In this document: positions 10,170 to 58,653 of the stretch, one piece after another
Layout: each line of letters opens with the position of its first letter
Numbering within the stretch: position 1 is the first letter of the stretch
Assembly (NCBI GenBank): GCA_949152475.1
Contig: OX424555.1
Span: forward strand, 72,245,499 to 72,309,498
Origin: Terebella lapidaria
Taxonomy: Eukaryota; Annelida; Polychaeta; Terebellida; Terebellidae
Reading direction: 5' to 3'
DNA length: 64,000 nucleotides
Notes under the pieces: generated by a model
The model's input: the letters and a program-made list of their open reading frames with translations, nothing else
Databases searched by the model: none
What the model was told of the DNA's origin: nothing
Position numbers and translations under genes: made by a program

Positions 10170-13100
10170 GCAACAGCTCCATAATTACCAATCCGCGGCC
10201 TCTCCATTCATCGATGTCAGGCCGTTTATAGTACACTTTGTCCCCATACTCTCTGAACACTCAGCTTCAGCATAAGCCGTGAAACTTCTTCGATATATTT
10301 TCTGTCACTGTTTCACTGGTTCTTGTCCCTTCCATTACAGGTAGATTGTTAGAAAGAACTGAGGGCATGTGTGGGTTTTCGCCAAATACCAGCTGATACG
10401 GACTGTCAGCAGAGACATTAAACAAAAATTTCTTGGCCATGCGTGTCGACCACTGTCCCGTATCCCAGTCGCCCTTGTTATCATGTTTCATTTTGCGAAT
10501 GATCTCAGACAGCTAGTGCCTGATTGTGTTGCTCGACAATCCCATTGCTTCAGGGACTGTACCCAGCCGTCGTTAGCACTTCCTTGTTGTAAACTCAAGT
10601 TCAACACAAAACCTCATATGATTTTTGGCGATAACTTCGTGTTGGATGGTCGGATCAATGTGAAATTTTATTTGTTTCTATTTGGCATAAAACCGTATTT
10701 TTTCACCAAATTTCAGACTTCTATCTTGAAAATTGAAAAAGTTGGCAATCTACTCCAATGTTAAATTTCACATCAAACGTGAAATTTGCAACTTTGAACA
10801 GAATTTGGCATGTTGTTCGATGTTCACACTGCACAGTACTTTGTAAGAATGATATTTTATTAGAATACACCTATATGATTCTTCAAACTCAAAAACTTTC
10901 CTCATATTACATTTCTTTGCAGAATAAAGATAATGAAATCCCCAAATTTCCTTGAATTCCTGTGATCCGATTAGTGCCCAACATTTAACATTGGGGTAGA
11001 TTGCCAACTTTTTCAGTTTTCAAGATACAAGTCTGAAATTTGGTGAAAAAATATGGTTTTGTGCCAAATGGAAGCATATAAAATTTCAAATTGATCCAAC
11101 CATCCCAAAAGAAGTTATTGCCGAAAATCATATGAGGTTTTGTGTTGAACTTGAGTATAGTTTTCTGCCATGCCCCTGACTTCTGCACTGTTAAATTCAC
11201 TCAGGAGTTTTTTGCATAGTCCAAAGATTCCAATCCAATATCGAATGAAAAATGTCTTTTTGTCCTCATCCTGCACTCAATCATGTGCAAGTACTACAGG
11301 TTAGGTCAGATATCATAACTGCTACATTTTTGTTGCTAACGGCAGTGAACTGGCTAGTGGCCTATGCTAGCGTCAGTTAACTGGCAGGCTTTGGTGGTGC
11401 CCGACCAAATTTCTTGCAAACACCACAGTCATTAACAAAGTCCTCAATAGTATTTGTCAATGTTGGTGTGACTTCCACTCTAGCACATTTTACTGAGTCC
11501 AAAAGTTCTTGCTGATGATGCATAACCATACTGTTTGTGCAACTTCTTTATAGACCTAACGGCATTTTGTTCTGATGCTGTCGTTTCTGCTATGCTGAGA
11601 ACCTCCTCATATTCTTCTGTTGCCTGTGCTAGTCAGCTTGATTCCTCATGCCACAAGCTGACACCATGGTGTTCTGTTGACGTTAACTCCAAGTATATTT
11701 CCTGTCCTAGCATCTTGGCCTGGTCCTTGTCAAGATCCAGCAATGTGCCAGCTGTTTTCCGCAATCGCTTGATGAGTAGAAGTGGCATGTATCCACGTCA
11801 CTTCTGTCTCGATCTCTGCCGTCTATGCCGACTTCAAAATGGCTCTATCACCAAACTTGAATCTCTGACTGCTGAGTAAAGATGGCAACTGAACGCTATC
11901 ATTTTCTTTCGATTAGCCCATTGTCCTGTGGCCACTGTTGTCCACGCACGGTTTTTGTGCAGACAGTGTCCTGAATGGCTGCCCCCACAAGCCTCCACCA
12001 CTAGAATTTCAAGGTTATCGGATAGACGTGGAATCAATACCCAGTATTAAGTATTCTGAGCGAATCCAATCTCATAGTCCAGGGACAGAAAGTCATATCA
12101 GGCATACGAAGTGACAGAAAACAAATATGACAGGGAGACTAATGAAACCTCAAAAATGGCCATTAGCAGGTGAAATCAGGTGTTCTGGAAAGAGTGAGCA
12201 TTTTCTGCTCACTCTCCTGGATCTTTGACGCTGCCAGATTCCCCAAATATTCTCTTCAATGCCGATTACATGCTTGCATTTGTGACATCGCTGTCAGTGC
12301 TAGCTGTCGCTCTTTGACATCTAGGTTCGCACCATCAAAAAGCTTGAAAGCCAGGATTGCGTCTGGTAGTTCCACCTCAAATTTCTTGCACCTATTGTAA
12401 TTGTGTTCAATTTTTACCAGAAAATCTGACATGGTCACCCTGCAACATATCTTAAGTCGGTGACGACCTATTTCTTTTCTCTAGGGGTCAGGTCATGTTA
12501 TTGTCACTGACTTGAGCTCAGATTTTTCGGAGGAAACCTTGACACTCCGTAAGAAAAATTCTATTTCTGCAATATGATGCATACATACAGTAACTGAGGG
12601 GGATGATACGATGTCCGAGATACTACTGTCCATTTATGTAATTCACAAATGTTAGTAGCAGTTGATATTCCCCAGAAATAAGGTTTCATCCGCTGATATT
12701 TACCCCAATTTTGACACGGTGATCACAATCATCGTCATTTTCAAGAACTTCTGAACATTGTATTCCAATAATATCCAGACGGGAATAACGATAATCATCT
12801 CGTGTTTCATATATTATAATTTTACAGTTATTTCTAAATCACTCCCCATGCTTGTCGTGACACCGATTTGAGTCGAGCGTCACCGACTTAGGTATACATT
12901 TTATAGAGTATAACATACCCATTCTTTGAGTGAGTGCAAGTGTACAATGAGTTCTTACAGTTATAACGATGTCATATTCGTGGTGCATGTAGTAACATAT
13001 TGTGTAATATACTTCCCAACAACATTTCGTAAGAACGGGTTATTGATATAATTATTTTTCGAAGCTGCAGTTTCGACTGGGACCACATTGTGATTGGGGC

Positions 13101-14290: not shown

Positions 14291-16442
14291 TGGACCCGAT
14301 GAATGTCGTGGAATTAGTCCACATTCCGGATCTTACGATATATTCTAATGGAATATTCGAACGGGATGCCAAGGACACTGAGATGTGTTGGGCTTGGTGT
14401 GACAAATATCTTGTAGGTGCAGCGATCGTCAGCACCTGATTCTAGACAGCTGGCACTAGTATTTTCACCCATCCTGATAGTGTAACTGGCAAAATATCCG
14501 TAACCCTGTTAGGTTGATAGGAAATAAACACACGTTTCCTGTCTTTCCTGATCGTTTTCGTGCGATCGATGTAAATTCTGAGCGATCGCACATGACATAA
14601 CAGAGCATCCGGCTGCGTCCGACGTGACCGACGATAGACGGCAGCACAATCGGACTAAAAGCATCCTTCCCTCTACCGCAGCACGTGTTTTAGGCGTAAA
14701 ATCACGAGCTAGATAGAGAGAATGTGACCCATCATTTGAATATGCTACCCTAGTAAAATCGACAGCAGCAATATCTGATCGTCTTCTCCTGCTGGCTAAT
14801 AACGAAGGTTTTCAAGGTAAAGCGCTGTAAGGAGACATCTTGCAACAGCTCGCTTTTGTGCGACAATATAACGCAAAAGCCATATCCCAATCTGGTAGAG
14901 ATAGTACTCCCCGGAGACGTTGCGTCCTAAAGGACGCCAAGAGGACAGAGAGAGTTTATTAGATAAATCAATCCCCTAGCACAAAAGACAGGTCCCAACA
15001 TGGACATATATCGCTCGATCGTAGACAGTTTCAGATTGAGCCTATCAAACAGATAGCAGAGAAAGTCTAGCAATGCGTTTTGTAGGGGCAGAGAGCGGAT
15101 CCAAGCTCCTTCCATCACACCAACGTACGAAGACTCTCCACTTAGCCTCATACGTCCTAGAAGAGGATCTTCGATTTGTCTTTGTGAGATGCTGAGACAC
15201 CCGTTTAGAAAAACATGCCTCCTGGAAGGATCGCTCGATAGCCTCCACATGTGTAATTTGAGAGTGTGGGCGAAATCGTGAAATATGTCCCAACCCGGCT
15301 ACTTGAGCAGACAGTTGGAGATTGGTAGTATCGTCAGTACGTCGATCACCAGGGACAACATTAGCATGCTTGCCAACAGAATTTCGCAATGAGACCTGGC
15401 CATTTTGTGAAGCACCTCCGTGAGAAAGCGGGTTGGTGGGTACACATACCCGTACATCCCGTCCCACAAATGGGACATCGCGTCCACTGCCAGTGCCTCG
15501 CTCTCTGGGAGCCACGAGAAGAAGGCCGGGAGCTTGTGATTCCGAGAGGTCGTGAACATAGTACAAGAGGATTAGGCTGTAACCTTGAAAAAAATTGTAG
15601 AAAGCTGAATTTTTCAGGAAACCTTCAGAGAGTCATATACATTACCATAATGCAGTGCGAGTTCTACCTTGTGGCATTTTCAAAAATCCAACATGGCCGC
15701 CATCGTATATCACAATAGATTCCAAAACAGAAATATGCTAATATCTTCTCAACCACATGACATAAAACAATGATTTTGGTGTCTACACCTATGTTTTTGG
15801 GTACGCCGAATCCGATAAAGCCAAATCCATGTTGTTGGTAGCTCATCTAATCACCCTAAACCCAATTTGGCTTCCAACGAGGGCGTAATCACTAATCAGC
15901 CACTAAATACAACAAAAAATTACTTTTGCATATGTAACTCTTTAAAGTTGGAATCAATTTTAAAATCAGCGAAATTTAGCGTTCTTGTTCGTCACGCAAA
16001 CTTGAAACTACATCTCGAGAGAGTCAGGAATATATAGAAAATATGCACAGTTGGACAACAGATACTCAGAAAATTGCCAATAATCGAGCATGAAAACAGT
16101 GGATAGATAATGATCGGCCTGCCTACATTGCCGGTTGCCACAGTATCTACACAAATACCAATGACGTCACGAGACTGTGTGTAGAAATCGCTCGCAAGGC
16201 GGGCCGCTTTGAGGAAAAAATGATTTGAATCTTGATTTGGCAACTCAATTTAGGCACGTAATGCACATTTTCAGACCCAAATTTGTACGATATCTCATTC
16301 TATAGACAAAATAATGCTACCGCAGAATGAATAAATTTTGTCAATTCTAAAAGTGATTATAGCTTTAATACACACACATATGTATTATAAAATTGGCAAC
16401 AGCAATAATACACAATAATACACAAACAATATGTGATTTATG

Positions 16443-17746
16443 TCACACTTTTGTACTCGTTTCATTTTCTTCATCAACAACAGTGGAATTTTTGCAATTG
16501 TGGATACTGCACACCGTACACATGGCGGTACACTCCAAACCTGCCTTGTAACAGCCACATGATTTTCCATACCCAACTTTGCATGAACAAGACACCATTT
16601 TAAGCACTTTCTCTGGAGCAGCAGCCCTGTCAGACTCAACTGGAATAAGCAGTCCCTCCTTGTATTGCCATCCCCAATCAGTAGGCGGCATTGCTGAACA
16701 GCATGGTATGTTCTGAAGGTGTGGAATTTTGCAGCTGCTGAAGTTGGAGGAAGAGACTCCAACTTGAAGCCAGATGAGGATATAGATGTCCTATTGACAG
16801 CACAGAAGTTCATGGCATAACGATGATCGTCCAGTGACTTTGCTTGTTTGGTTCCATACAGGCGCAGCAGAAACACTTCGCCTACTCGTGCTACGTCTTC
16901 GTGAGAACTATCAGCCAGAGAGAAGACGTCCAAACAGTCCCAGTTTTTGTCACTCTCAATCAGTGCAATAGCCTTCTTCTTGCCTTGATTGTAGAGTACC
17001 GAAACCGTATCACACCCTGTGATGGCATGTACAAACATCAGATGTTGTTTGATACGGCCGAAAGCTGTCTGGATTTCTGCAATACTGTACATCTGGAATG
17101 CATTCCGTCCAAACAGCATATGTAGGTCCATGCTTGGCATAGCTTGTGCAACCAGCATCACAAGTAAGTCCGTATCTGTAGCCTTGACAACAACAGGTTC
17201 ATTTGTTGACTGAGCAACATCCATGGCGAATGATACAATCAGCCAGTCAACATCTGCATTGCTCTGTTTGACCGTTAGACCTTTGATCTCACATTTGTGT
17301 GTCAAATGTTTTATCAACCGGTCCTTATTTCGGGCATTGCCCAGAAACGCCTGTTTTGATGTGGTGGTTTTCATTTCAAGCTCAAACAGGATGTCAGCAG
17401 ATGTGTTCTTTTGTGCTCGTCGCTGCTGTTCAGCACATTTTGTGGACATTTTGTGCATTTTGTAGCAGCCAATCACATATGACACAAAGTTGTCACACAC
17501 CAGGTCGTACGTGGCATCAGCAGGCCAAGGGAGGTTTTGGAGGTGGTGACCCCCATCAAGGACAAATCGTGGTCCCTCAGGTAGTTGAAGCTGGACACTC
17601 ACTTTTGATTTGAGGACATTTGCCAAAAGACTTTTCATGTGTTTCCTCATGATCCCTTTATCGAGCAAGGATGGTAGTTGTTTAGCAAATTCGTGAAGAA
17701 GGTACACTTTCATCTCTGAGTTTTCTTTAATCACAGATATGATCAT
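16443..17746 (-). pseudogene. Academ-like nuclease/CXC protein gene, left arm copy
   Basis: A 453-codon frame opens with an ATG at 17746 near the palindrome centre. Mid-protein acidic motifs ATDTDLLVMLV and HAITGCDTVSVLYNQGKKKA fit the PIN/XPG-like nuclease family found in invertebrate transposons. Near 16690 the frame shifts relative to the right arm because of a missing stretch of about 16 bases. The original C-terminus continues in another frame to a stop at 16443, with a tesmin/TSO1-like cysteine cluster (CSCKVGYGKSCGCYK then CTAMCTVC). A separate internal loss removes the TVIVF-type block still seen in the right arm. Likely inactive. An upstream half of the protein, if one existed, is not in the element. 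Confidence 0.72.
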
Positions 17747-17827
17747 GCTCCTATCAAAATCACAGTCCAGGGTGTTGAGGTGGATGTGAATACTACACTA
17801 TTATTCATGAGGGTCATATGTGTGATT

Positions 17828-19120
17828 AAAGAAAACTCAGAGATGAAAGTGTACCTGCTTCACGAATTTGCTAAACAACCACCATCCTTGTTCGATAAAG
17901 GGATCATGAGGAAATACATGAAGAGTCTTTTGGCAAATGTCCTCAAATCGAAAGTGAGTGTCCAGCTTCAACTACCTGAGGGACCATGAATTGTCCTTGA
18001 TGGAGGTCACCTCCTACAAAACCTCCCTTGGCATGCCTATGCCACGTACGACCTGGTGTGTGACAACTATGTGTCATATGTGATTGGCTGCTACGGGTTG
18101 CAGACAGTGATCGTGTTTCATGGATAGGGGACATTTCCTCCACAAAATGTGCTGAACAGCAGCGATGAGCACAACGGAACACATCTGCTGACATCCTGTT
18201 TGAGCTTGAAATGAAAACCACCACTTCAAAACAGGCGTTTCTTGGCAATGCCCGAAATAAGGACCGGTTGATAAAACATTTGACACACAAATGTGAGATC
18301 AAAGGTCTAACGGTCAAACAGAGCAATGCAGATGCTGACTGGCTGATTATATCAGTCACCATGGATGTTGCTCAGTCAACAAATGAACGTGGCTAAAGAT
18401 ACGGACTTGCTTTTGATGCTGGTTGCAAAAGCTATGCCAAGCATGGACCTACATATGCTGTTTGGACAGAATGCATTCCAGATGTACAGTATTGCAGAAA
18501 TCCAGACAGCTTTCGACCGTATCAAACAACATCTGATGTTTGTACATGCGATCACTCTACAATCAAGGCAAGAAGGTGGATATTGCACTGATTGAGAGTG
18601 ACAAAAACTGGGACTGTTTGGACGTCTTCTCTCTGGCTGATAGTTCTCATGAAGACGTAACACGAGTAGGCGAAGTGTTTCTGCTGCGCCTGTATGGAAC
18701 CAAACAAGCAAAGTCACTGGACGATCATCGTTATGCCATGTACTTCCGTGCTGTCAATAGGACATCCATATCCTCATCTGGCTTCAAGTTGGAGTCTCTT
18801 CCTCCAACTTCAGCAGCTGCGAAGTTCCACACCTTCAGAACATACCATGCTGTTCAGCAATGGTATGGAAATGTCCTGCCGCCTACTGATTGGGGATGGC
18901 AATAAAAGGAGGGACTGCTTATTCCAGTTGAGACTGACGGGGCTGTTGCTCCAGAGAAAGTGCTAAAAATGGTGTCTTGTTCATGCCAAGTTGGGTATGG
19001 AAAATCATGGGGCTGTTACAAGGCAGGCTTGGAGTGTACCGCCATGTGTACGGTGTGCAGTAGCCACAATTGCCAAAAATCCACTGTTGATGAAGAAAAT
19101 GAAACAAGTACAGAAGTGTG
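17828..19120 (+). pseudogene. Academ-like nuclease/CXC protein gene, right arm copy
   Basis: The same protein as the left arm on the opposite strand: KENSEMKVYLLHEFAK at the start, then MKTTTSKQAFLGNARNKDRL at 18211-18270, DTDLLLMLVAKAMPSMDLHM at about 18400, and KNWDCLDVFSLADSSHED from about 18602. It keeps the WYGNVLPPTDWGW segment lost from the left arm but has stops and shifts of its own (for example TGA at about 17987 and TAA after GWGWQ at about 18902). The two copies have decayed independently. Confidence 0.72.
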
Positions 19121-19962
19121 ACATAGATCACATATTGCTTGTGTATTATTGTGTATTATTGCTGTTGCCAATTCTGTAATACATAATGTGTGTGCATTAC
19201 AGTGTTACATATGCAAAAGTATTTGTTTGTTGTATTCAGTGGCTGATTATGCCCTCGTTGGAAGCCAAATTGGGTTCAGGGTGATTAGATGAGCTCCAAC
19301 CAACATGGATATGGCTTAATCGGATTCGGCGTACCCAAAAACATAGGTGTAGACACCAAAATCATTGTTCTATTTCGTGTGGTTGAGAAGATATTAGCAT
19401 ATTTCTGTTTTGGAATCTATCGCGATATACGGTGGCAGCCATCTTGGATTTTTGAAAATGCCACAAGGTAAAACTCGCAGAACTTTGCATTATGGTAATG
19501 CATATGAATTTCTGAAGGTATCCTAGAAAATTCAGCTTTCTGCAATTTTTTTCTAGGTTAGGGCTAGGTTTGAGCTAATACTCTTGTACTAACAGGTCTA
19601 TGTTCGGCGTTCGGAACACCTGACAAATGCATCGAAATACCTCCGGATTGAGACTCCACTCCGTGCATCTGCTAGGACATTCCTGCGACCTGATATATGG
19701 CATGCTCCGAGGTACAGGCGATGCCGGAAGGCAAACCTGATCAGAGTCTCGGCCTCCAAAGAGAGTTCCCTCGAACGATTTCCCTCCAGTTTGTTTACAT
19801 GCGCTACGACCATTCTGTTGTCCGTGAACACCAGCCACCTTGTCCCTGGAGGACTGAGAGGTCCCCAACACTCGAACGCATGCCTCACCGCTGGAAGCTC
19901 CAGGACATTGATGTGCAGTTCCTGCTCCTGCACGTCCCATGTGCCTGACAGTTCCTGCTCGA

Positions 19963-20117
19963 GCCCCCCCCCCCCCCCCCCTGAGCCCCCCCCCCTCCCC
20001 CAAGATATGTTGGACGCATCCATGAAGAACGTTCGATCGAGCAGATACTCCGACAATGGCATCTCCCTGTCCAAATTGACAGGATTGAGCCACCATCTCA
20101 TACCCCCCCCCCCCCCT
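19963..20117. repeat. long cytosine runs
   Basis: C homopolymer tracts around 19963-20000 and 20105-20117, in the DIRS fossil. Such runs are prone to slippage and sequencing error. Confidence 0.8.
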
Positions 20118-22370
20118 GATGGAATCGTCCAACACCACGATATGGTCAAATCGATCAGTGAGGATCTGCCATTGCAGGGCCTGACACTACTGTATGGGCC
20201 TGAGAAAGCATCTGCCAAACGGAACTTGCTTCTCCATAGACGCCAGCAGACCTATGATCGAGAGACTGGCGTGTAATCGACGGAAGACCCAAGGCCTGCT
20301 CGATTGCCATCTTCGTCTTGAGTATCCTCTTGCTGGGAGGAAGAGCTACCCCTCTCAACAAATCGTACTTGACTCCGACATACTCGGACGACTGAGTCGG
20401 AGTGAGCTGAGACTTTTCCGTGTTTGAAATCCACCCTAAACTCGTAGCCAATCTGAGGAAGAACCCAGACTGCTTGATCGCCTGCGACAGGTAGCAGGCT
20501 ACTATCAGCCAATCGTCGATATAATGGTGGAACTGAATTCCTGCCATCCGACACCTGGCTGCCATAGCCCTTACGATCCGAATGAATACGCACAAGGCTG
20601 TGGCGACCCTGAAGGGAAGTACCCTGAACTGGTACACTACGCCCTCGAATGCAAATTTCAGATAACAGAGGATATGCAAGTAAGCGTCCTTGACATCAAT
20701 ACTCACTGCCCACTTCCCCCTTACTAGGGCCTTCTGAACGGAAAGCACTGACTCCATACAAAACCTCGGTATGATCAGGAACTTGTTGAAGTTTGACAGA
20801 TCGAACACGGAAAATTAGAGAAAAAAATCCTCGTTCATCCTCGACCACCTCGATGGCCCTCTTCTCTAGCAACTACTTCAACTAGAGAGTACTTTTCCTG
20901 ACTGCCGGACACAGGGAAGAACCAAGCATTTGGTCTTAGCGGTGGTTTTAGAGCCACCCATCGAAAGGTGAGACTCTCTGTCACCCATGCCATGACGCTG
21001 GTGTCAGAAGCCGCGACGTTGCGCAAGTTCCCCGAGAACTGTGCTAGCCGACCCCCGTATGGACCAGGTTGTGCCTCAGAACTATTTGTTCCTCAGAACT
21101 ATAGAGCCCATAGAGCCTGCGTTTCCTGGCAGCAAGTCACTTCTTAGCTGACTTGCCCTTGCCCTTGAAGCGCCCACCTGCCTTGCCGCCCCACTTGCCA
21201 TCCCCCTTAGGAGGGGGAGGCTAGTTCCCCCAAAAGGGCACCTGCGAGGTGGAAGGTGCATGCGGTGCCTGAGACTGTGCCGGCTTCTGGCTCTTAGCCT
21301 TCTTGCTAGACGACTGCCCCGCCTTGTCCACGATTGCCTTGGCGAGAAGCTCATCCCGAAGATGCTCACGGAAAACCGTGACATCCGCCTGAGAGTCCAC
21401 CAAAGACATGACTGGTGAACAACGGCCTCCCACGCAGCTCCGATTCATCACCAGGAGTGACATCGAGAGTGCGGAGATCAACATCGCTCGTTGGGACCTC
21501 GCACCCAGGTGCACACTATCGCGCTCACCAGCCTGGAGCACTCCGGACAAAACGCCTAGTGCTGCCAAGATGTCAGCACGATCCCCATCCTCCAAGTCTG
21601 CCTCGTCCACAAACTCCTGCACCAAAGTGGTGAGGTGGTTCACCAACGAGAGCTGGCCCATCACTTGATGTGCCATCGTCTGCCAGTGAGCAGGGCGAGC
21701 CTTCTTCACATACGCCGACCAGACTACACCCTGCTTCTGGGAAAGCAGGTGGAGGTTGGGTTGTGATCGTGACAGACGTCTGCCTGGCACCAGGCCTCTG
21801 CAATGCTCTGTATGTGTCAATGGACTCTTGTCGAACACGACCAGTAGGGAGCACCGACTCCGAACGAGCCATGTCCTTTTTTGCCGTCATCCCCGTGTTG
21901 AATTTGGCCATAACCTTCGTCAATGCGGGAGCCACAGGTAGTGGAGCATGGTCGACGAACTGGCCCGGACGCAAACCATCCGGTTCATTTAGAGGACTCT
22001 GAAGCCTCGATAGGCAAGATATGATCGTGAGCCCAATCACGGAACCTGGGATTCCCTGCTCCCTCGAACCTCGAAACTGAGGACTCGAATGACGCATCGA
22101 GCAAAGCTCCATGGCCTATGCCCGAAGCATAGCCATCAGCCAACGAAGGTCTGGCCGAGAAGCCCTGATCGCCGTCAAAATGAGACGAGTGATTGGCCTC
22201 CAAAGCACGCTTCCTCTTACCCGAACAAAATCAGACGGGAGCCACGAACGACACAGGTCGCACCTCAGGTCTTCCATGGACACCGGAAGGATGCAGACAA
22301 TCGTGCCCAGTTTCAATCACGCGAATTTTACAATCCACAGGATCGAAAAGGAGCATGTAGTAGTTTAGAT

Positions 22371-36898: not shown

Positions 36899-37619
36899 AT
36901 TCTCAATTTTTACAACTCATTGTTACACAAATTTAGGCTAATATTAGAATAAAATTGGGCAGGCAAAGTAGTACAAAAATGTATTTCCGATCTGGCCTGT
37001 AATGTGCACAAATATATTTATACATACATACAGGTTGATATTTCACTATATATACAAGTATAATATATCAACCGGATTTGATAAAATTTACAATTCACAC
37101 TATAAAAATAAACACAGTTTTAAGAGAAATTTCCGATACAAACAAGTTGTATAAGTACATAGAATGGGAAAACTGTACTCTGTCGCTCAAGCTAATATCA
37201 GGTGATGGGACGGGTCTCCTGTGAAAATGGAGTCTAAGGTCAAATTGAAGGTCATGATGATAATCAGCATATGTCATGTTCTAAGCTGTAAGGTCGATAA
37301 CAAGCGAGATATTAGCCATTTTGTGCACTGACCTTGAAAATATGGTCAAAGGTCGAGTTCAAGGTCATGAGCATATATTCAGCACATATCATTTCCTATA
37401 TACATGTAGGCACAATTGATTCTTAAGTTCTACAGTGATATAATAAGCAGAATATTGGTTATTTTGTACTGTGACCTTGAAAATTAGGTCATAAGTCAAA
37501 CTCAATATCTCGAGACTATTCAGCATACATCATTTCCTTACAATTGATTCCGAATCTTTACTCTCAATATTAAGTGAGAGAATAATGTGTCCCAGTATAA
37601 AGCCTAGGAGAATTCAGCA

Positions 37620-38519: not shown

Positions 38520-39008
38520 TCCTTTAACACGCTTGATGAACCCCTTCTGACATTAAATTTGACCTTGAATTTGACCTCACATGACCTTGAATGGTAATTC
38601 TGATTCCAAGCACTGATTTCAGTCCAAAATGAAATACTAGTAAGTAATTTGACTTCTACATACTAGACGGCTGCAGATGAAGCTTAGTTTTGTATTATGA
38701 ATGTATAGGAAGTCGTATATATGCGGATATTTTGGTAATCTTGAAGTATCTAAGATGACCTTGGGTGGTAAATCCACCCTGAAATGTGAAAATGAACTCT
38801 GCATACGAAACCGCTGTGGATAAAGCTTAGGTTTGTATTTTGAACATATTGGAAGTCGCGGATCAATTGTGGACATATATATAGGAAATTATATACGCCG
38901 AATATTCTGATGACTTTTGACTTCTCGAGGTCAGAGCACAAAATGATTAGTATGTCGCTTATTATCCACTTTAGAGTTTTAGAATCAAATGTGCACATAT
39001 AGGATATA
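38520..39008 (-). repeat. AGGTCA satellite units, inverted orientation
   Basis: CTTGAATTTGACCT, GATGACCTTGG and CGAGGTCAGAGCACAAAATG with CACATATAGGA are units of the same family as 51240-52500 but reversed. The Ty3/gypsy element inserted into the last unit. Confidence 0.7.
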
Positions 39009-39737
39009 TGTAAAGTTATTGACTATCGTCCGCTCTTCGGGATCCTCGAGGATAGTCCTCTCACCACGAGTCCTTGCGGACGCGCATCCGCTATTCCGGA
39101 TCCTTGCGGCGGCGCCGCTCACCGGAGGTCACTGCGGACATGGTAACCACTCTATCATTAACGGTAACCAGGTAACAGCCCACCCGACACTCCCAGGCCT
39201 ACGGACACCGTTCAGAAACTGGTTCATCACCACGGTGTTAACTGGAGGGGCCTGGCGAGCCGCGGTCTGCCTCGGGGACGGAACCCCGTACAGTCCGACA
39301 TGCTGGCCAGAGCCTATGTCACACGTCCCGGGAAGGGAGAGAACTGGCGATCCACAGGGCTTGCGCCCCCGAGTCAGCAACTTGTCTCTCCCAGCCCGGG
39401 CATGGAAATCGTCCCCAGGGCTCTAGGAGCCCACTACTCGCAACTAGGGAACACAAAGCTCATGGCGAGCCTCGTGTGCGTCCCAGTTACTCTCTCTCGG
39501 ACAATCTCCTCGATCGAGTCGCTTCCAGTGTATATATAATACACCACAAGCTGTAGGACGCACGCGAGGTATAATCAAACCATTGTTATAGTTTACTGGA
39601 GCGTAAATTACAATGCGTTGCCGTGGCAACGCACGCTCGAACGGAGCGTGTCAAAACAAGGCCAAGAACGAAAAGGCCACATAAATGGCATGTATGTTTA
39701 CAATCACCTGCCGCGTGCTTAGGGCAAAATCGCCACA
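39009..39737 (-). repeat. 3' LTR of the Ty3/gypsy element, 729 bp
   Basis: Near-identical to 49877-50611. On the plus strand it reads TGTAAAGTTATTGACTATCG at its start and AAAATCGCCACA at its end. A TATATATAATAC stretch near 39531 could be a TATA-type signal. Confidence 0.93.
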
Positions 39738-44160: not shown

Positions 44161-46062
44161 TTATTCCCACCCATATCGGGCTGGCGCACGTGGTTTCCGG
44201 CGTGGCCGCCCGTCATCCGCAGGTACTGGAGGGAGTGGGGGTACCTGCGGATCGCCGTCATCTGGCTGATAGCCACCCAGTCCATCATCTGACGGGTCAG
44301 AGAGGTCCGGGAGGCCCACCATACGGCGCACACGCTCGTCCGGAGTCCGCGGATGCTGACCGGACGGATCCCATACGGGAGCATCATCCGGTTCCGCATC
44401 TTGAACGAGCGGATCCATGACAAGCGGGCCCTCGTACTTCTTCAGATTATCGATATGGACAACCAGAACCCTGTCCGGATCGGAATCCCTCCGGATCCGG
44501 TAGTCCACATCTGTCACCTGTTTCAGTACCGTAAACGGGCCTATCCACGGCTTAGCAAATTTATTACCTTGCTTAAGCGGCGGATAATAGTAGCGCACCT
44601 TGTCGCCTTCCGCAAAAGCTGGCCTACCCTTAGCATGGGCGTCATAGCCTCGCTTCTGCCGGATGGCAGACTTGTCCAGGCGCGCGCGCGCGAAATCATG
44701 GGCGTTCGCCAGGGCGCGGCGAATCCACTCCACGTACTCCGGACCGCACTGGGGTACTGCGCCGGTCTCTGCCGCAGTTGGATACATTATATCTACGGGC
44801 AAATTTAGCTCCCGGCCGTACAACATCGCGTGCGGAGTAACTCCGGTCGAAGAGTGGACCGACGACCTGTACGCCATTAAGACATACGGGAGGTGGTCAT
44901 CCCAATCATTCGTACGATCATTCACAAAGGCCGCCAGCATATTGAGGACCGATCGATTAAAGCGTTCGACCTGGCCATCAGACTGGGGCCTGTAGGGGGT
45001 GGTCCGCACCTTGGTACTGCCTAGCATCTGTGCTAGGTTTCGGAACATGTTGCTCTCAAATTGCTTGCCCTGATCCGAATGTACCTGTTTAGGTACCCCA
45101 TGGTACACCACCCATCTATTTACCAGCAACCGAGCTACCTCGTCCGCAGTCTGGCGGCGCAGTGGGTAGGCATCGGTATATTTGGTAAAATAGTCGGAAA
45201 TCACCAGGATGTACCGGAAACCGCGCGGGGTGACCCGGTGGGTATCCAGTATATCCAAAGCTATCCAATCGAATGGCGCGCCCGCCTTAACCGTGGTTAA
45301 GGGGTGGCGGCCAGGAGTCGGAACTCCTTTGCGAGCTTGACACCGAGGGCAGGCTGCGCACCACCGTTGCACGTCCAAGCTGCTACCAGGCCAATGAAAG
45401 CGCTGTTGTAGCCTATGGAAAGTCCTCCGGATTCCCAAGTGACCGGTCACCCGGAGGTCATGCAACTGGTGGAGTACTTCTTTCCGCAGCTCCGCCGGAA
45501 GCACCAACTGCCATATTGGAGGCAGTGGAGTCGGTGGCTCATAGCGCCGGTATAAGAGGCCATCCCTCAAGGAGAGTCTTTCCCACTGGGATACTAGAGA
45601 CAAAGTCTCCTCCCTGTAGGTCTTCCGCTCATCCTTAGAGGGCTTCTGGCCGGCCTCAAGGGTTGTCATTACCGGTGCCAGAGCACTATCAGCTCTCTGC
45701 GTCGCAGCTATCTGCGCCGGAGAGTAGCCACCCAAGTAATTAGGCTCCTCATCCGTCGCATCCTGCTGCGCCGCAGCGGCCATCACCACAGGGGGCAAGG
45801 ACCGCTCATACTCAGACTCTCCAGAGGACGAGGGTACCCACGAGGAGTACACCGCCGGACTCGAGGAGGACTCGCTGGAGCTGAGCCGCACCTCCGCTTC
45901 ATATGCAGGACGCCCCCGCCGATAACGGCGGGTTCTCGCGCGGAGATGAGCCCTAAACGCTCCGGCCGCCGTGTTGTTAGAGGGGGCGGCAGCCTGCAGT
46001 CTTCCCGGAACGTCCAATTCCGAGTCTGAGGACGAATCCGCGGCTTGCTGGAATGGCGACAT
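44161..46062 (-). other. integrase region of the Ty3/gypsy fossil
   Basis: A long frame with the zinc-binding HHCC module (HLGIRRTFHRLQQRFHWPG, CAACPRC), then the DDE core (FDWIALDILDT, VHSDQGKQFESNMF, PYRPQSDGQVERFNRSV) and a C-terminal PFTVLKQVTDVDYRI domain. This layout is diagnostic of Ty3/gypsy integrases. It is named here as a part of the fossil only. Confidence 0.88.
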
Positions 46063-46561
46063 CCCTGCACAGCCCGGATTCTTGCGTGTCCTCTCCCATC
46101 CGGAGTTCGCCAGCGCTAAAGTTGGCGGTCACCCGGTGGACCCGTAGGAAATTCATCCCAATAATCCCGGCCACTCCGATATCCGCAACGATTGCCTCTG
46201 TCAGATACACCTTGTCCCCAAGGGTAATAGGCAGATCGATGATGCCATGGATACGGATGCGGTTGTCTCCTGCTCCGTAGAGCTTGTATGGTCCGGGATC
46301 CCGCAACTCAAGGCTGCGGAGCACGGGCTCCTTCTTAAACGTTCCTGCGGCAATGAGGGTCACCTCCGAGCCAGAGTCCACGAGGAACCGGACCGGCTCC
46401 CGTTCGAAGGACAGGGGCAGGTACCAGCAGGGGTCCCTCACCAGCGCGCAGGTAGGGCGATACCGTTCGCACGCGCTGGGCTCATCTACGGAGTCCTCGC
46501 CATCCGCCTCAGCCGCGGAGGAGCTAGACTGATCTCCAAGGACTACTTCCGGAGAAGTCAT
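45977..46561 (-). other. aspartic protease region of the Ty3/gypsy fossil
   Basis: The retropepsin signature FLVDSGSEVTLIAAG and the later GIIGMNFL block identify the protease. It is preceded on the element strand by gag. Confidence 0.85.
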
Positions 46562-48669: not shown

Positions 48670-49876
48670 AATAATATCTAAGTACATGTACCAATACAGA
48701 GTATCTTGTATCATTCCACAAGACAAACATGTAGGCCTAAATATAGCCTAATGTAGACTGTAGAACATATATAGGTCCTGATGTATTCATGAATACATTC
48801 ATGAATACTTACCAAAGTATTCGTATTCGAATACAGAGCTAACTATGTGTATTCGTATTCGTATTCGTATTCATACATTTGTAGAGTATTCGTATTCGTA
48901 TTTGAATACTTATCTAATGTATTCACCCCATGCCTGGGAGCAGGCGCGGGTCCCATTGCGGGGGCCACTGGCGCCTGCGGACTCGGCAGGACTTGGGGAG
49001 GGGCTATAGGCCCAGTCATCCCCGGACTTGACATGGCCGACGGATCGACGCTCGGAGGCGGCTGATTCCGCTTGAACTGTACAAGCGCCTCGGATATCAG
49101 CCACTTCTCCCTCTCCGTCAAAGGCCCCGAGTGGCCTGGTAACAGCGGAGAGGGGGAACGGTTCCGCCGGTCTGATCGTCCCTGGTGGGGCGACCGGGCG
49201 CGGTCGTAGCGCCCTAGAGGAGCCAGCTCACTAAGAGTGTTGGTGAGCTGGTCCATTCCGCCTGACGCGGACCGCCTGGAGTCCCCGCCGGGAGCCCTCG
49301 CAGGAGCTCCTCCGGCCGGAGGTGGCATCCAGTAGCGCTGGTCCACTTGCCCGGAGGTACTCGCGCAGGCGTTCACTCGATTCCAGACATCCGGAGATGT
49401 CCCCTGGAAGAGTGTCGCCTGCCACGACTCACGCCCGGACTTAGGCGGGCGCGGGGTAGCGCCGTTGCCAGCTCCACCTACCGCGCCTGACGGATCAGGG
49501 CCAGGCCCTGATCGCAACCTCTGTTGCGGCCCCTCGGGGCGCGACTCTTCGTCCGGAGACGGAGTCAGGGACGCCGGAATCGACTCTGTAGACGGGATTT
49601 TGTCCACGGAGGTCTCTGCACGTTCCTTACTACCGCCGGAGTCATCCGAAGAATTCTCACGGCGGCCGTCGCTTGACCGGGTGTGGTCCGCGACGTTTCC
49701 ACCCGTTTCTCCCCCCTTGGGTTCATTCGCCTTATCTTTTCCTTTATCTCTTTCTTTCGTCATTCTTCTAAGACGTCCTTGAGGAGCGGGCGATCCCCAG
49801 GGACGAAGGAGGCTACAACACTGTGACGGTAGGCTGCGATGAAACACTGTCGGACTGATCCTGGTCACGGCACCAA

Positions 49877-50611
49877 TGTAAAGTTATTGACTATCGTCCG
49901 CTCTTCGGGATCCTCGAGGATAGTCCTCTCACCACGAGTCCTTGCGGACGCGCATCCGCTATTCCGGATCCTTGCGGCGGCGCCGCTCACCGGAGGTCAC
50001 TGCGGACACGGTAACCACTCTATCATTAACGGTAACCAGGTAACAGCCCACCCGACACTCCCAGGCCTACGGACACCGTTCAGAAACTGGTTCATCACCA
50101 CGGTGTTAACTGGAGGGGCCTGGCGAGCCGCGGTCTGCCTTGGGGACGGAACCCCGTACAGTCCGACATGCTGGCCAGAGCCTATGTCACACGTCCCGGG
50201 AAGGGAGAGAACTGGCGATCCACAGGACTTGCGCCCCCGAGTCAGCAACTTGTCTCTCCCAGCCCGGGCCTCCCCATGGAAATCGTCCCCAGGGCTCTAG
50301 GAGCCCACTACTCGCAACTAGGGAACACAAAGCTCATGGCGAGCCTCGTGTGCGTCCCAGTTACTCTCTCTCGGACAATCTCCTCGATCGAGTCGCTTCC
50401 AGTGTATATATAATACACCACAAGCTGTAGGACGCACGCGAGGTATAATCAAACCATTGTTATAGTTTACTGGAGCGTAAATTACAATGCATTGCCGTGG
50501 CAACGCACGCTCGAACGGAGCGTGTCAAAACAAGGCCAAGAACGAAAAGGCCACATAAATGGCATGTATGTTTACAATCACCTGCCGCGTGCTTAGGGCA
50601 AAATCGCCACA
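49877..50611 (-). repeat. 5' LTR of the Ty3/gypsy element, 735 bp
   Basis: Near-identical to 39009-39737. Transcription of the element would start here, on the minus strand. Confidence 0.93.
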
Positions 50612-51412: not shown

Positions 51413-52500
51413 TCGAACTTGACCTTTGATTTCATTTTCAAGGTCACAAGACAAAATGTCTGATATCTTGAAAATTAGGCCAAGGGCCAAAGATAGGTTA
51501 CCGGACAATGTTTAATATTTTAGGTATTAGCCAGGTCACTGGTTGAATTCAAGGTCAAGAGAATATTCAGCATATATAACATTAAGCATATATCATGTCC
51601 ACAGTTGATTGCTAAGCTGTAAGTTCAATAATCAGAGAGAGATTAGCAATTTTATGCTGTAGCCTTGAAAATGAAGGGGCAAAGGTCAAATTCAAGGTCA
51701 TCAAAATATTCAGTGTATATCATTTTCTATATTATGTATATCATGTCCACAATTGATTCCCAAGCCATACAGTCAATAGAGGAGCAAGATATGAGCCAGT
51801 TTGTCCTTGGACCTTAGAAATGAGGTCAGAGGTCAAATTCAAGGTCACGAGAATATTCAGCATATATCATTTCCTATATGTCCACAATTGATTCCTAAGC
51901 TGTAAAATCGATAATAAGTGAGATATTAGCCATTTTGTCCTGTGACCTTGAAAATGAGGTCAAATGTCAAATTCAAGGTCATGACAATAATCTGCATACA
52001 TGTATATCATTTCCTATATGTTCATAATTGATTGCTAAGCTGTAAAGTCGATAACAAGCGAGATATTAGCCATTTTGTCCTGTGACCTTGAAAATGAGGT
52101 CGAAGGTCAAATTCAAGGTCATCAGAATATTCAGCATATATCATTTCCTATATGTCCACAATTGATTCCTAAGCTTTAGAGTCGATAATAAGCGAGATAT
52201 AAGCCATTTTGTGCTCTGACCTTGAAACTGAGGTCAGAGGTCAAATTCAAGGTCACGAGAATATCCAGAATATATCATTTCCTATATGTCCACAATTGAT
52301 TCCTAAGCTGTAGAGTCGATAATAAGCGAGATATAAGCCATTTTGTGCTCTGACCTTGAAAGTGAGGTCAGAGGTCAAATTCAAGGTCACGAGAATATTC
52401 AGCATATATCATTTCCTATAGGTCCACAATTGACTCCTAGTCTCTAATCTCAATATCAAGTGAGATATTAGGCATAATGTGTCCCATTATAAAGCATAGG
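51413..52500 (+). repeat. AGGTCA satellite array, unit about 134-140 bp
   Basis: TTCAAGGTCA recurs at about 51838, 51972, 52112, 52246 and 52380. Each unit also holds GACCTTGAAA-TGAGGTCA-AGGTCAAATTCAAGGTCA, CATATATCATTTCCTATATG, CACAATTGATTCCTAAGCTG and GATATTAGCCATTTTGT. It forms the interior of the TIR element at 51494-52927. Confidence 0.9.
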
Positions 52501-52927
52501 AGAATTTAACATGGGAAAGTCCCATTTGAGCCGAGTTTGGGCCAAAATGGCCCACTTCGAGCGATTCAAGCGCAACGAAATTTATAGACATCATAGGAGT
52601 ACATATGAGGAGTGTTATTTATCAAAAAGAAAAAAAGTTACTGAACAGATTTTGAGAAAATGGCCGCCAAAGTCCAAAATCAGGCATTTTTCGTCGAAAA
52701 CGGCCGCCATTTTGAAAAAAATGCGAAAATCAAAAAACTAAAAAATACCTCCTTCTTGAATTATTTTTAAGTATTTTTGTGCAAAATTTCAGAAATATTC
52801 GCCTGTAAACAAAAAAGATAAAAATGTGGACGACGACGGACGACGACGGACGACGACGGACGCCGACGGACGACGACGGACGCAACGCCATGCCAATAGG
52901 TTATCGGACCATAGGTTCGGTAACCTA
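51494..52927 (+). mobile_element. AGGTCA-satellite TIR element, copy A, 1434 bp
   Basis: Begins TAGGTTACCGGACAATG and ends GGTTCGGTAACCTA (imperfect TIR). The interior consists of satellite units, then a unique part (TTCGAGCGATTCAAGCGCAA, AACGGCCGCCATTTTGAAAA), then a GACGGACGAC tract and the ending ATGCCAATAGGTTATCGGACC. The right end folds into a stem-loop (TAGGTTATCGGACC with GGTTCGGTAACCTA). A second small hairpin (TTAGGCCAAGGGCCAA) lies just outside the left end. No transposase is coded. The same layout recurs at 58795-60593. Confidence 0.8.
52828..52886 (+). repeat. GACGACGGAC minisatellite
   Basis: Tandem GACGACG/GACGCCGACG units near the right end of the TIR element. A related GGACGGACGACGGACG tract is at 60527-60550. 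Confidence 0.85.
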
Positions 52928-53250: not shown

Positions 53251-53600
53251 TTGTGAATATTTAGGAAATGATATGCTGAATATTGTCATGACCTTGAATT
53301 TGAGCTTTGATCTCATTTTCAAGGTCACACGACAAAATGGCTAATATCTCACTTATTTTCGACTTTACAACTTGAGAATCAATTGTGAACACACAGGAAG
53401 TGATCGATATATGCTGAATATTTTGACAAACTTTAATTTGACATTTGACTTCATTTTCAAGGTCACAGGACACAATTGCTAAGATATCTATTATTATTGA
53501 ATTTACAGCTGAGCAATCAATATGATATATCATTTCATACAAGAAAGGATACATGCTAATCGTTCTTGTGACCTTGAATTTTATTTGATCAGTGACCTTG
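53251..53600 (-). repeat. AGGTCA satellite units, inverted orientation
   Basis: At least two and a half units in the opposite orientation to 51413-52500 (ATGCTGAATATTGTCATGACC, CATTTTCAAGGTCAC, GAATCAATTGTGAAC). Confidence 0.75.
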
Positions 53601-56552: not shown

Positions 56553-58547
56553 TTATTTTTGATGCTTGAGAGCAGTCTCCAGCCAATCGTTCTCATCAAA
56601 GGATTCCTCATCACTGGTTGTCTCGTCTTCCTGCAGCAGCTTAGCATAGCGAACTTTGCTCTTCTTCGGGACACATCGGCAAAGGACTGCGAAGATCAGG
56701 GCCCACGTCACGGCGAGCACACAGCCGCCCTGCAAGACATGCTGCAGACCAACCCTGTCATAGAGGATCCCAGCGACAACGCTACCCGCGGCCACTCCAA
56801 AACCTGTGTGTATGATGTTCATGACGGAGAGTGCGCTGCGGTCCATGACGAAAGGATTTAGACGGAAGTCAGGGTAGGACGTGATAGCAGCGAGCACGAG
56901 TCCAGTGCTGAAGCCAGTCAGACCCTCGCCCACGAGAACGAACCACGCTGATGTGCTAAATGAGTAGATCAGGAGCTTGCCCGCTAGAATCAGGAGGCCC
57001 AGTACCACGGCCGCGGCATGGGTCAATCTGCGGATCAGCCAGCGGTGTAGGATCTCCATCTGGAGCTGACTGAAGGCTGAGATAGTGATACTGATGCCCA
57101 TCACCAGCTCCGAACCTCCCAAGTCCTGCACCAGCCAGAAGACGAAGACAGTCGGGACAGCTTGCAGCAGTCCAAGGACCAGTACCGTCAGCACGAATAG
57201 TGTGCCGTGGCAGTCAACAAACAGGATACGGAACCCTCGACTCAGTCTCGTCAAACGCTGAATCTTAGTGCGCTCCTGTACGATTGGATAGACGAATGAC
57301 AAGATGAAACATATCAGCATCAGTGCTAGGAACACGAAGAAGTGGATCTTGAAGTTGAGGATTCCACCTGGCAGGATGCACTCTGTGTGGTGGACGATGA
57401 TGGTAACAGTGACAGGAATCAGGATCAACCCAAGAGATGCCCATGCCTTGTGCTGTCCATACTTCTCCAGCATATCTGTGGTGTCTAAGAAATCAAACCA
57501 GGTATCATCTGCGAGCTTGTCCGCAGGAGATCCGAACAGAGAAGCAGCGATGACAACCACCAACACAGCCGCAAACACTTGCTTCCTCAGCTGTTTGATC
57601 TGGTTTTGCAAACTGTAAAATTTGGAGAGGATTGAGTCCAACATTCCTTGCTCTTCCGCCGCCTCATCCTCAGGACTAGTGGCAACAGTGTCATTCTGCT
57701 TGGTGTCTCTGCGGGTACGGTGGCCATGGTGCTTCTTAGGTCCATTCTTCTCCTTGTCATCAGTATTGACCAATTGCTCCAGGTACTCAATGATTTCTTC
57801 TTCACTCATTCCTTGGACAACTTCTAGATCAACTCCAGCATCTTTCAGCACTTGCAAATCTTGTTCACTGAACAGATCATGTATATCAGTTACTTTGTTG
57901 TCATTTTCCTTTTGGTTTTCCCCTTTATCCACTGCTGGCACAGTAGATGGGCTCTTCGTTACTAAGGTGGTAGATGGGAGTGGTAGTAGTGTTGTTGACT
58001 TTTCTATGGGTTCTACAACTCCAGCTGCACCATGTTCCTCAGACAATGCTGTGGTCCCTTCTACACTTTCAGCTTCTGTTGTGGAGAGAGTGGATGATGA
58101 GATATTGGAAGCAGTGGACGACGTACTGAAGGGTGTTGTAGACTCTATCAGGGCAGGTAATGTTGTGGACACAGTGTTGACTTTGGCCGCTGGGGAGGAT
58201 CGGTTACTATTGCTACAGAAGCTGAGTGCAACCTCATCATTGATTGGAGGCACGACCATTAGCAGCATGTATGAGATGATCAGCGACAGCAGTGACATGA
58301 CCAGCATGAAGCGTCGCTTGTTGCATGTTGTGGCACAGTGCGTCAGACAGGTAGAGCTAATCATTGTGACCCAGGCTCCTGCTCCGATCACTGTCCCAAC
58401 CTGCACTGCTGTCAGCCCCAACATCCGCATGTAGATTGACAAAAACGGCAACAGACATCCCTTCCCGGCAGCAAGCAAGAAATGGAAGGCGTACGACCGG
58501 AACTGAACCTTTGACATATCCACTGCATCCATTGCAGGTTGTGCCAT
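56553..58547 (-). CDS. MFSD6: major facilitator superfamily domain-containing protein 6
   Basis: An integral membrane protein of the MFS_1-like/MFSD6 family. Transport substrates are not established; a vertebrate relative was described as an MHC class I receptor homologue. The coding region has no introns: 664 residues, ATG at 58547, TAA at 56555-56553. About twelve membrane spans: near 17-40, 45-67, 78-100, then 325-342, 368-386, 400-421, 448-474, 480-500, 510-530, 534-556, 574-596 and 605-624. LLAAGKGCLLPFLSIYM at the first span and the GxGxxxG-like segments of the last spans are family features. Residues about 101-322 form a large loop rich in Ser/Thr with N-glycosylation sites (NRS, NIS, NDT) and a dibasic RTRR at 277-280. 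The tail is acidic (DETTSDEESFDEND). The start is chosen because the next Met is inside the N-terminal region and an upstream 5' UTR splice acceptor fits. Confidence 0.93.
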   Translation of the reverse strand: MAQPAMDAVDMSKVQFRSYAFHFLLAAGKGCLLPFLSIYMRMLGLTAVQVGTVIGAGAWVTMISSTCLTHCATTCNKRRFMLVMSLLSLIISYMLLMVVPPINDEVALSFCSNSNRSSPAAKVNTVSTTLPALIESTTPFSTSSTASNISSSTLSTTEAESVEGTTALSEEHGAAGVVEPIEKSTTLLPLPSTTLVTKSPSTVPAVDKGENQKENDNKVTDIHDLFSEQDLQVLKDAGVDLEVVQGMSEEEIIEYLEQLVNTDDKEKNGPKKHHGHRTRRDTKQNDTVATSPEDEAAEEQGMLDSILSKFYSLQNQIKQLRKQVFAAVLVVVIAASLFGSPADKLADDTWFDFLDTTDMLEKYGQHKAWASLGLILIPVTVTIIVHHTECILPGGILNFKIHFFVFLALMLICFILSFVYPIVQERTKIQRLTRLSRGFRILFVDCHGTLFVLTVLVLGLLQAVPTVFVFWLVQDLGGSELVMGISITISAFSQLQMEILHRWLIRRLTHAAAVVLGLLILAGKLLIYSFSTSAWFVLVGEGLTGFSTGLVLAAITSYPDFRLNPFVMDRSALSVMNIIHTGFGVAAGSVVAGILYDRVGLQHVLQGGCVLAVTWALIFAVLCRCVPKKSKVRYAKLLQEDETTSDEESFDENDWLETALKHQK

Positions 58548-58653
58548 TGAACCTTCAGGGTCGAGAATAAATCAAATACTTGTGCAGCTCCAGGCCGCTG
58601 TAGGATGTCTATGTATGGTAGTCAATTTCTATCCACAACCTTGTCTAGATCAT
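58548..58653 (-). other. MFSD6: 5' UTR part of the MFSD6 coding exon, with splice acceptor
   Basis: On the gene strand ATGTTGTTTTCAG precedes ATGATCTAGACAAGG, a good acceptor with boundary at 58653/58654. This suggests a 5' UTR intron and an upstream non-coding exon, possibly hidden among the repeats at 58795-60593 or beyond. The short ATG-TAG frame at the acceptor would be a minimal upstream ORF. Confidence 0.5.

Follow-up and report, generated by a model that had tools for sequence, protein, structure and literature searches.

A palindromic element inserted in a retroelement

The stretch of DNA analysed here (the window; 64 000 nt, positions 72 245 499 to 72 309 498 of contig OX424555.1, assembly GCA_949152475.1) comes from the annelid Terebella lapidaria and contains, at 15559-19591, a palindromic transposable element of ~3.6 kb. 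An earlier note on this DNA, made from the letters alone, had described this interval as almost entirely an inverted repeat. Pairwise alignment from terminus to centre showed that it is indeed a near-complete one, with nine arm blocks that span 15580-19560 and are 89-97% complementary. The left arm (arm B; 15559-17742, minus strand) and the right arm (arm A; 17743-19591, plus strand) meet at a turning point around 17740-17754, where a short self-complementary sequence is found. Arm A begins with an unduplicated central loop (17743-17813, plus strand) of 71 nt, the length of which is 92 nt in two other copies (L013 and L015). As reported in the note, an ACA triplet stands on each side (15556-15558 and 19592-19594), and we regard it as the target-site duplication (TSD). 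The 11-mer TAGTACAAGAG lies at 15559-15569 and its inverted copy at 19581-19591, and it has no further match in the window at ≤1 mismatch. Since two 11-mer matches alone are within chance (24 of 100 shuffles gave at least two), the weight of the evidence rests on the arms and on the other copies described below.

When the nested insert and the centre are set aside, 97 of 1713 aligned sites are different between the arms (Kimura two-parameter distance 0.059; 52 transitions and 45 transversions), and there are 13 indels. The indels bear out the remark of the note that the arms had decayed differently; the ~420 extra bp that it counted among these differences, however, are not part of the palindrome. 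They correspond to a later piggyBac-type miniature inverted-repeat transposable element (MITE) of 419 bp at 15946-16364 (15942-16368 with the TTAA duplications at 15942-15945 and 16365-16368), which combines this target duplication with imperfect inverted ends and whose empty site is seen in the right arm. The genome carries at least 20 further copies at 97-99% identity, plus one at 77%, and the high identity of the former points to a recent burst of this MITE family. Conversion between the two arms of the window copy was considered and rejected: the longest identical run (91 nt) was reached in 37% of permutations, and the clustering of arm-to-arm differences was not significant (P = 0.17).

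The element interrupts a decayed retroelement, presumably of the DIRS type to judge from its motifs (window 14927-22115, minus strand). The left flank (14927-15555, minus strand) holds the downstream part of its frame (...TTSRNHKLPAFFSWLPESEALAVDAMS...) and the right flank (19595-20814, minus strand) the upstream part, in which 20155-20814 matches reverse transcriptase (PF00078, 2.7e-9); no solved structure matched this reverse transcriptase piece. Once the element and one ACA are removed, the joined flanks read as a single continuous frame (...VFRTPNIDLFTTSRNHKLPAFFSWLPESEALAVDAMS...). A search with a query typed from the joined pieces yielded nine retroelement relatives, eight of them with a reverse transcriptase; a search with a shorter query had given eight candidates, none of them significant. 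All nine relatives are uninterrupted through the insertion point (e.g. TPNIDLFATSRNHKLPVFFSPLPESEALAVDAMS), so that the comparison of the ACA site with its pre-insertion state, suggested in the note, favours a true insertion.

Gene fragments in the arms

Each arm encodes, reading outward, the C-terminal portion of a nuclease/CXC-type protein, and it is to this portion that the earlier claim of an outward-reading nuclease/CXC gene in both arms applies. Arm B has an open frame of 470 codons (16388-17797, minus strand), which covers a nuclease part with DGGH, TDTDLL and GCDT motifs and lacks the FDGY motif found in relatives; the initial ~18 codons come from spacer on the wrong strand, and a frameshift near 16689 precedes the CXC-type end. 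The fragment in arm A (17720-19121, plus strand; starting ...KITVQGVEVDVNTTLLFMRVICVIKENSEM) contains stops and frameshifts, and ends in a Cys-rich CXC-type stretch (18906-19121); its reading frame is continued by the loop. Approximately the first 320 residues of P0001 are absent from the arms. Among 13 elements examined, the longest frame does not exceed 470 amino acids, and the ratio of nonsynonymous to synonymous substitution rates (dN/dS) between the arms, computed after removal of gapped codons, is 0.62 and not different from 1 (338 codons, P = 0.16). The encoded protein has an XPG/FEN-type nuclease, as expected of AcademX transposons. A DDD/E transposase domain, also a mark of that lineage, would be expected beyond the arms or in the N-terminal portion of the protein. 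No Pfam family matched above the cut-off, and a protein-alignment search of bacterial/archaeal and viral contigs confirmed no relative.

Seventeen copies with a single origin

The genome (G000; 761.6 Mb in 438 contigs) was searched with left-arm DNA, where the best 40 of 2645 first-look candidates, many of them owed to the MITE, were scored, and with inner-arm DNA, where all 17 candidates were scored. Together these searches identified 17 palindrome loci. Sixteen have both ends; the remaining one (L058) has a single end and is outside the counts that follow. In 14 of the 16 two-ended copies the 3-bp flanks match (ACA, ATT, CCC, ATG, TAA, CAA, TAA, ATT, ATA, TAA, TGT, GGA, AAA and TAA), and the chance of at least 14 matches at 1/64 each is 6e-24. 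Beyond these triplets the surroundings of the loci are unrelated. The same centre aligns in 10 of 11 loci, L009 being in the alignment without a centre. Additional copies that share the junction and differ in their flanks, which the note had named as proof of mobility, thus exist. The copies consist almost entirely of long inverted repeats, are flanked by TSDs and have no intact transposase, as is expected of non-autonomous foldback or palindromic elements; their TSD is 3 bp, in contrast to the 8-11 bp of Mutator-superfamily foldback elements.

The arms were then compared among loci, with the exception of six that are too rearranged or short (L019, L020, L051, L057, L058 and L059), and after alignment columns with <60% occupancy had been trimmed. 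A maximum-likelihood tree was built from 21 arms at 11 loci, and a single split in it, with an ultrafast bootstrap (UFBoot) value of 87, places all 10 loop-bearing (A) arms on one side and all 11 loop-free (B) arms on the other; the 99 that appears at the B group once the tree is re-rooted is the value of a neighbouring branch. Near-fixed A/B differences were found in 15 of 1684 columns. For a comparison of splits, L011 was additionally left out, and for one set of ten loci a tree was built from the A arms and another from the B arms. Six of their seven splits are common to both, a number that none of 5000 label shuffles reached (maximum 4). Mirrored trees of this kind are what repeated copying of a single, whole palindrome would produce. 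The shared A/B split, the mirrored trees, the matching 3-bp flanks and the unrelated surroundings therefore show that the palindrome arose a single time and was afterwards mobilised again and again as one unit, and movement as a unit is what the note had proposed for the window copy.

The two tips are different

The note had taken both outer ends for the same terminus. They agree for only ~17 nt (with one mismatch in the window copy) before a 10-nt indel sets them apart, the consensus beyond the common 17 nt being CTCAAACCTAGCCCTAACC in arm A and GCTGTAACC in arm B. The distance from the terminus to the inner core of the terminal inverted repeat (TIR) is accordingly 37 nt in the long A tip (19555-19591, minus strand) and 27 nt in the short B tip (15559-15585, plus strand). 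One A and one B tip are present in 16 of 16 two-ended copies, strongly deleted ones included, although the B assignment in L059 is marginal (32 versus 30). Substitutions between the A and B consensus sequences are denser in the outer 92 nt (8/82) than in the inner part (41/1599; P = 0.002). In L010, arm A looks B-like from ~nt 40 to 92, which marks the original point of switching or else results from conversion afterwards.

Two related full-length elements allow the tips to be oriented. The first (L053; 2278-8419, genome C2, ~33.39 Mb) is 6142 bp long, has a TTA duplication, an open frame of 1487 amino acids and TIRs of ~320 bp that are 92% similar, and on these features is possibly an intact, autonomous AcademX-like element. 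The second (L052; 331-9874, genome C17, ~11.05 Mb) is 9544 bp long, with an AAT duplication, broken frames and TIRs that are 79% similar over 143 columns; its N-terminal gene part is present twice in tandem. The spacing from terminus to inner TIR core is 35 nt at the gene-5' end and 25 nt at the gene-3' end in both, an asymmetry that the 37 and 27 nt of the palindrome match, and the combination of A with the 5' end and B with the 3' end outscores the opposite one in each element, whichever of the four lengths was tried. The loop-bearing arm thus ends in the tip that resembles a gene-5' end, and the loop-free arm in the one that resembles a gene-3' end. Scripted TIR detection on L054 and L055 returned no credible ends. 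A similar 10-nt difference is visible by eye in L054, the termini of which are undefined, and it was not counted.

Origin of the palindrome

We favour, with a probability of roughly 0.68, the interpretation that these copies form a non-autonomous palindromic family derived from an AcademX-like DNA transposon, with one origin and movement of the whole, and that aberrant gap repair made the first palindrome. In this scheme the interior of an ancestral full-length element would have been broken or gapped, and at the broken end on the 5'-TIR side the terminal ~37 nt of the 5' TIR (perhaps ~90 nt) would have survived. This end could have annealed to a template copy at its 3' TIR, which is homologous and inverted; the TIRs of the relatives are alike enough for this (79% in L052 and 92% in L053). 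Copying towards the interior would have covered ~1.7 kb of the 3' half and another ~90 nt, past the other break, before the end was joined to the other broken end, i.e. the retained 3' half with its own B tip. The result would be an inverted pair of 3' halves with an unduplicated loop between them, and with a 5'-type tip at one end and a 3'-type tip at the other; thanks to these unlike tips, it could be mobilised by a transposase acting in trans.

Several observations weigh against this scheme or parts of it. The support for the A/B split is only UFBoot 87, and the flanks do not match in L020 (TAG/AAA) and L059 (AGG/GGT). The assignment of the tips to 5' and 3' depends on two full-length elements, both of them distant (~39-60% protein identity to P0001), and in L052 the B tip taken alone scores better with the 5' than with the 3' end at 40 nt (35 versus 18) and at 50 nt (40.5 versus 29). 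An exchange of tips or TIRs after the origin, at which L010 hints, may weaken the argument drawn from them. Finally, neither the parent element nor a single-arm copy that would reveal it, as the note had anticipated, was found among the best 56 of 765 candidates scored in one search and the 17 of 17 scored in the inner-arm search.

The closest competitor is a snap-back or sister fusion: a 3' half left by a break would have turned back on itself or been joined to its sister, and the resulting structure with two gene-3' ends would have been excised and reinserted elsewhere. It explains the head-to-head halves, the loop and the short self-complementary turning sequence, and a later exchange of tips (compare nt 40-92 of L010) would remove the tip asymmetry as an argument against it. 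Yet it predicts the 3' tip of the parent on the loop-bearing arm, where a 5'-like tip is seen, and a tip of each type occurs in 16/16 two-ended copies; we consequently prefer gap repair and rate the snap-back as rather unlikely. The model offered in the note, one end half of an Academ-like element copied head-to-head, is thus retained as to the two inverted copies of one half and not as to a simple snap-back or sister fusion.

The other explanations are far less probable. The 470-codon frame in arm B of the window copy might suggest an autonomous palindromic element that is moved by its own short protein. That frame has neither the FDGY motif nor the CXC end, the frames of other copies are shorter or rearranged, and dN/dS between the arms (0.62, P = 0.16) is not different from 1, so we hold this to be highly improbable. 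Slightly less credit still is due to the idea that ordinary elements were inserted at each locus and made palindromic later and independently. Such local conversion would also leave a 3-bp duplication, and gap repair in place has been proposed for transposons capturing other DNA (PMC8277862). It is largely refuted by the centre common to 10/11 loci, the 15/1684 arm-specific columns and the mirrored trees, which require one origin, and no unconverted copy was found among the same candidates (56 of 765, and 17/17 with the inner arm). Least probable of all is an assembly artefact or a segmental duplication of one locus. The loci have unrelated flanks with 3-bp duplications of their own, the arms within one copy differ by 5-7%, and the window copy has the MITE in one arm and not in the other, in agreement with the view of the note that this is no mirror artefact. 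Palindromes are, for all that, a known assembly hazard.

Foldback and palindromic elements are known, and how one first becomes palindromic has mostly been inferred. In the family described here, one palindrome-forming event can be read in many descendants, which jointly inherited the centre, the loop and both arms, and the tips offer a hint as to the original and the copied arm. The choice between snap-back and gap repair thereby becomes a question that sequence can answer. A rule is also suggested for the lasting mobility of some palindromes, namely that one 5' and one 3' tip be retained.

Relation to known systems

The family is probably AcademX-like, an assignment based on its features. 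AcademX elements encode a nuclease and have 3- or 4-bp TSDs (PMC10045372), as do 14 of the 16 palindromes (3 bp) and the two full-length relatives (AAT in L052 and TTA in L053); full-length elements, in contrast, are not palindromes. The open-licence literature searched turned up no palindromic Academ element.

Among the most similar structures is Mu killer, a derivative of maize MuDR, which has an internal deletion and consists of one end half of an autonomous element, duplicated in inverted, head-to-head orientation; it measures ~4 kb, with a partial transposase gene in each arm (PMC3440606). It differs in being described as a locus of the Mutator system, in having both TIRs from the same element end and in its centre, given there as unsequenced (PMC3440606), whereas the present family belongs to another transposon type and shows 17 loci, TSDs and two different tips. 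The extended-TIR copies of Galileo in Drosophila willistoni are likewise TSD-flanked and consist mostly of two long TIRs; in copy 147, >500 bp of the transposase open reading frame have been taken into both TIRs, and gap repair with template switching has been invoked for defective copies (PMC4168063). Galileo, however, belongs to the P superfamily and has 7-8 bp TSDs, and its extended forms are presented as single copies, not as a family of one origin (PMC4168063). Tetris is a mobile, non-autonomous foldback element that is nearly all TIR and for which an autonomous partner was not found; unlike the present family it has 8-10 bp TSDs, tandem repeats in its TIRs and, as described, no conserved open reading frame, and it was suggested to belong to the Mutator superfamily (PMC4079207). 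Template switching with microhomology inside TIR elements, some of which later transposed, is described for Pack-TIR transposons; the DNA copied there is not from transposable elements, whereas here it is the element's own half, inverted (PMC8277862). The present case is set apart by the combination of a complete palindrome whose arms each hold a partial gene, numerous loci that share one origin, and tips from which the event can be oriented.

Silencing is the known effect of Mu killer (PMC3440606). It is conceivable, though we think it doubtful, that copying from the wrong TIR, in contrast to a simple snap-back, keeps a palindrome mobile through obligatory 5' and 3' tips, whose 10-nt asymmetry, about one helical turn, may be required by the transposase, and that hairpin RNA from the palindrome helped to silence and eliminate the parent. 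The family would then be mobile DNA that gives rise to hairpin RNA and holds the nuclease gene of its parent in both orientations.

Other features of the window

A 177-nt inverted repeat (10590-10766 and 10983-11159; 91% complementary, 216 nt apart) is MITE-like. Direct repeats of 300 nt (39008-39307 and 49876-50175), 99% identical and 10868 apart, surround an integrase open reading frame (44161-46128) and are probably the long terminal repeats of a Gypsy-like element. Tandem-like repeats with a period of 134-140 nt occupy 51783-52543, with related units near 37231-37542 and 53271-53521. On the minus strand, 56553-58571 is a single open frame of 672 amino acids with an MFS_1_like domain (PF12832, 1.6e-45), apparently a host transporter gene.

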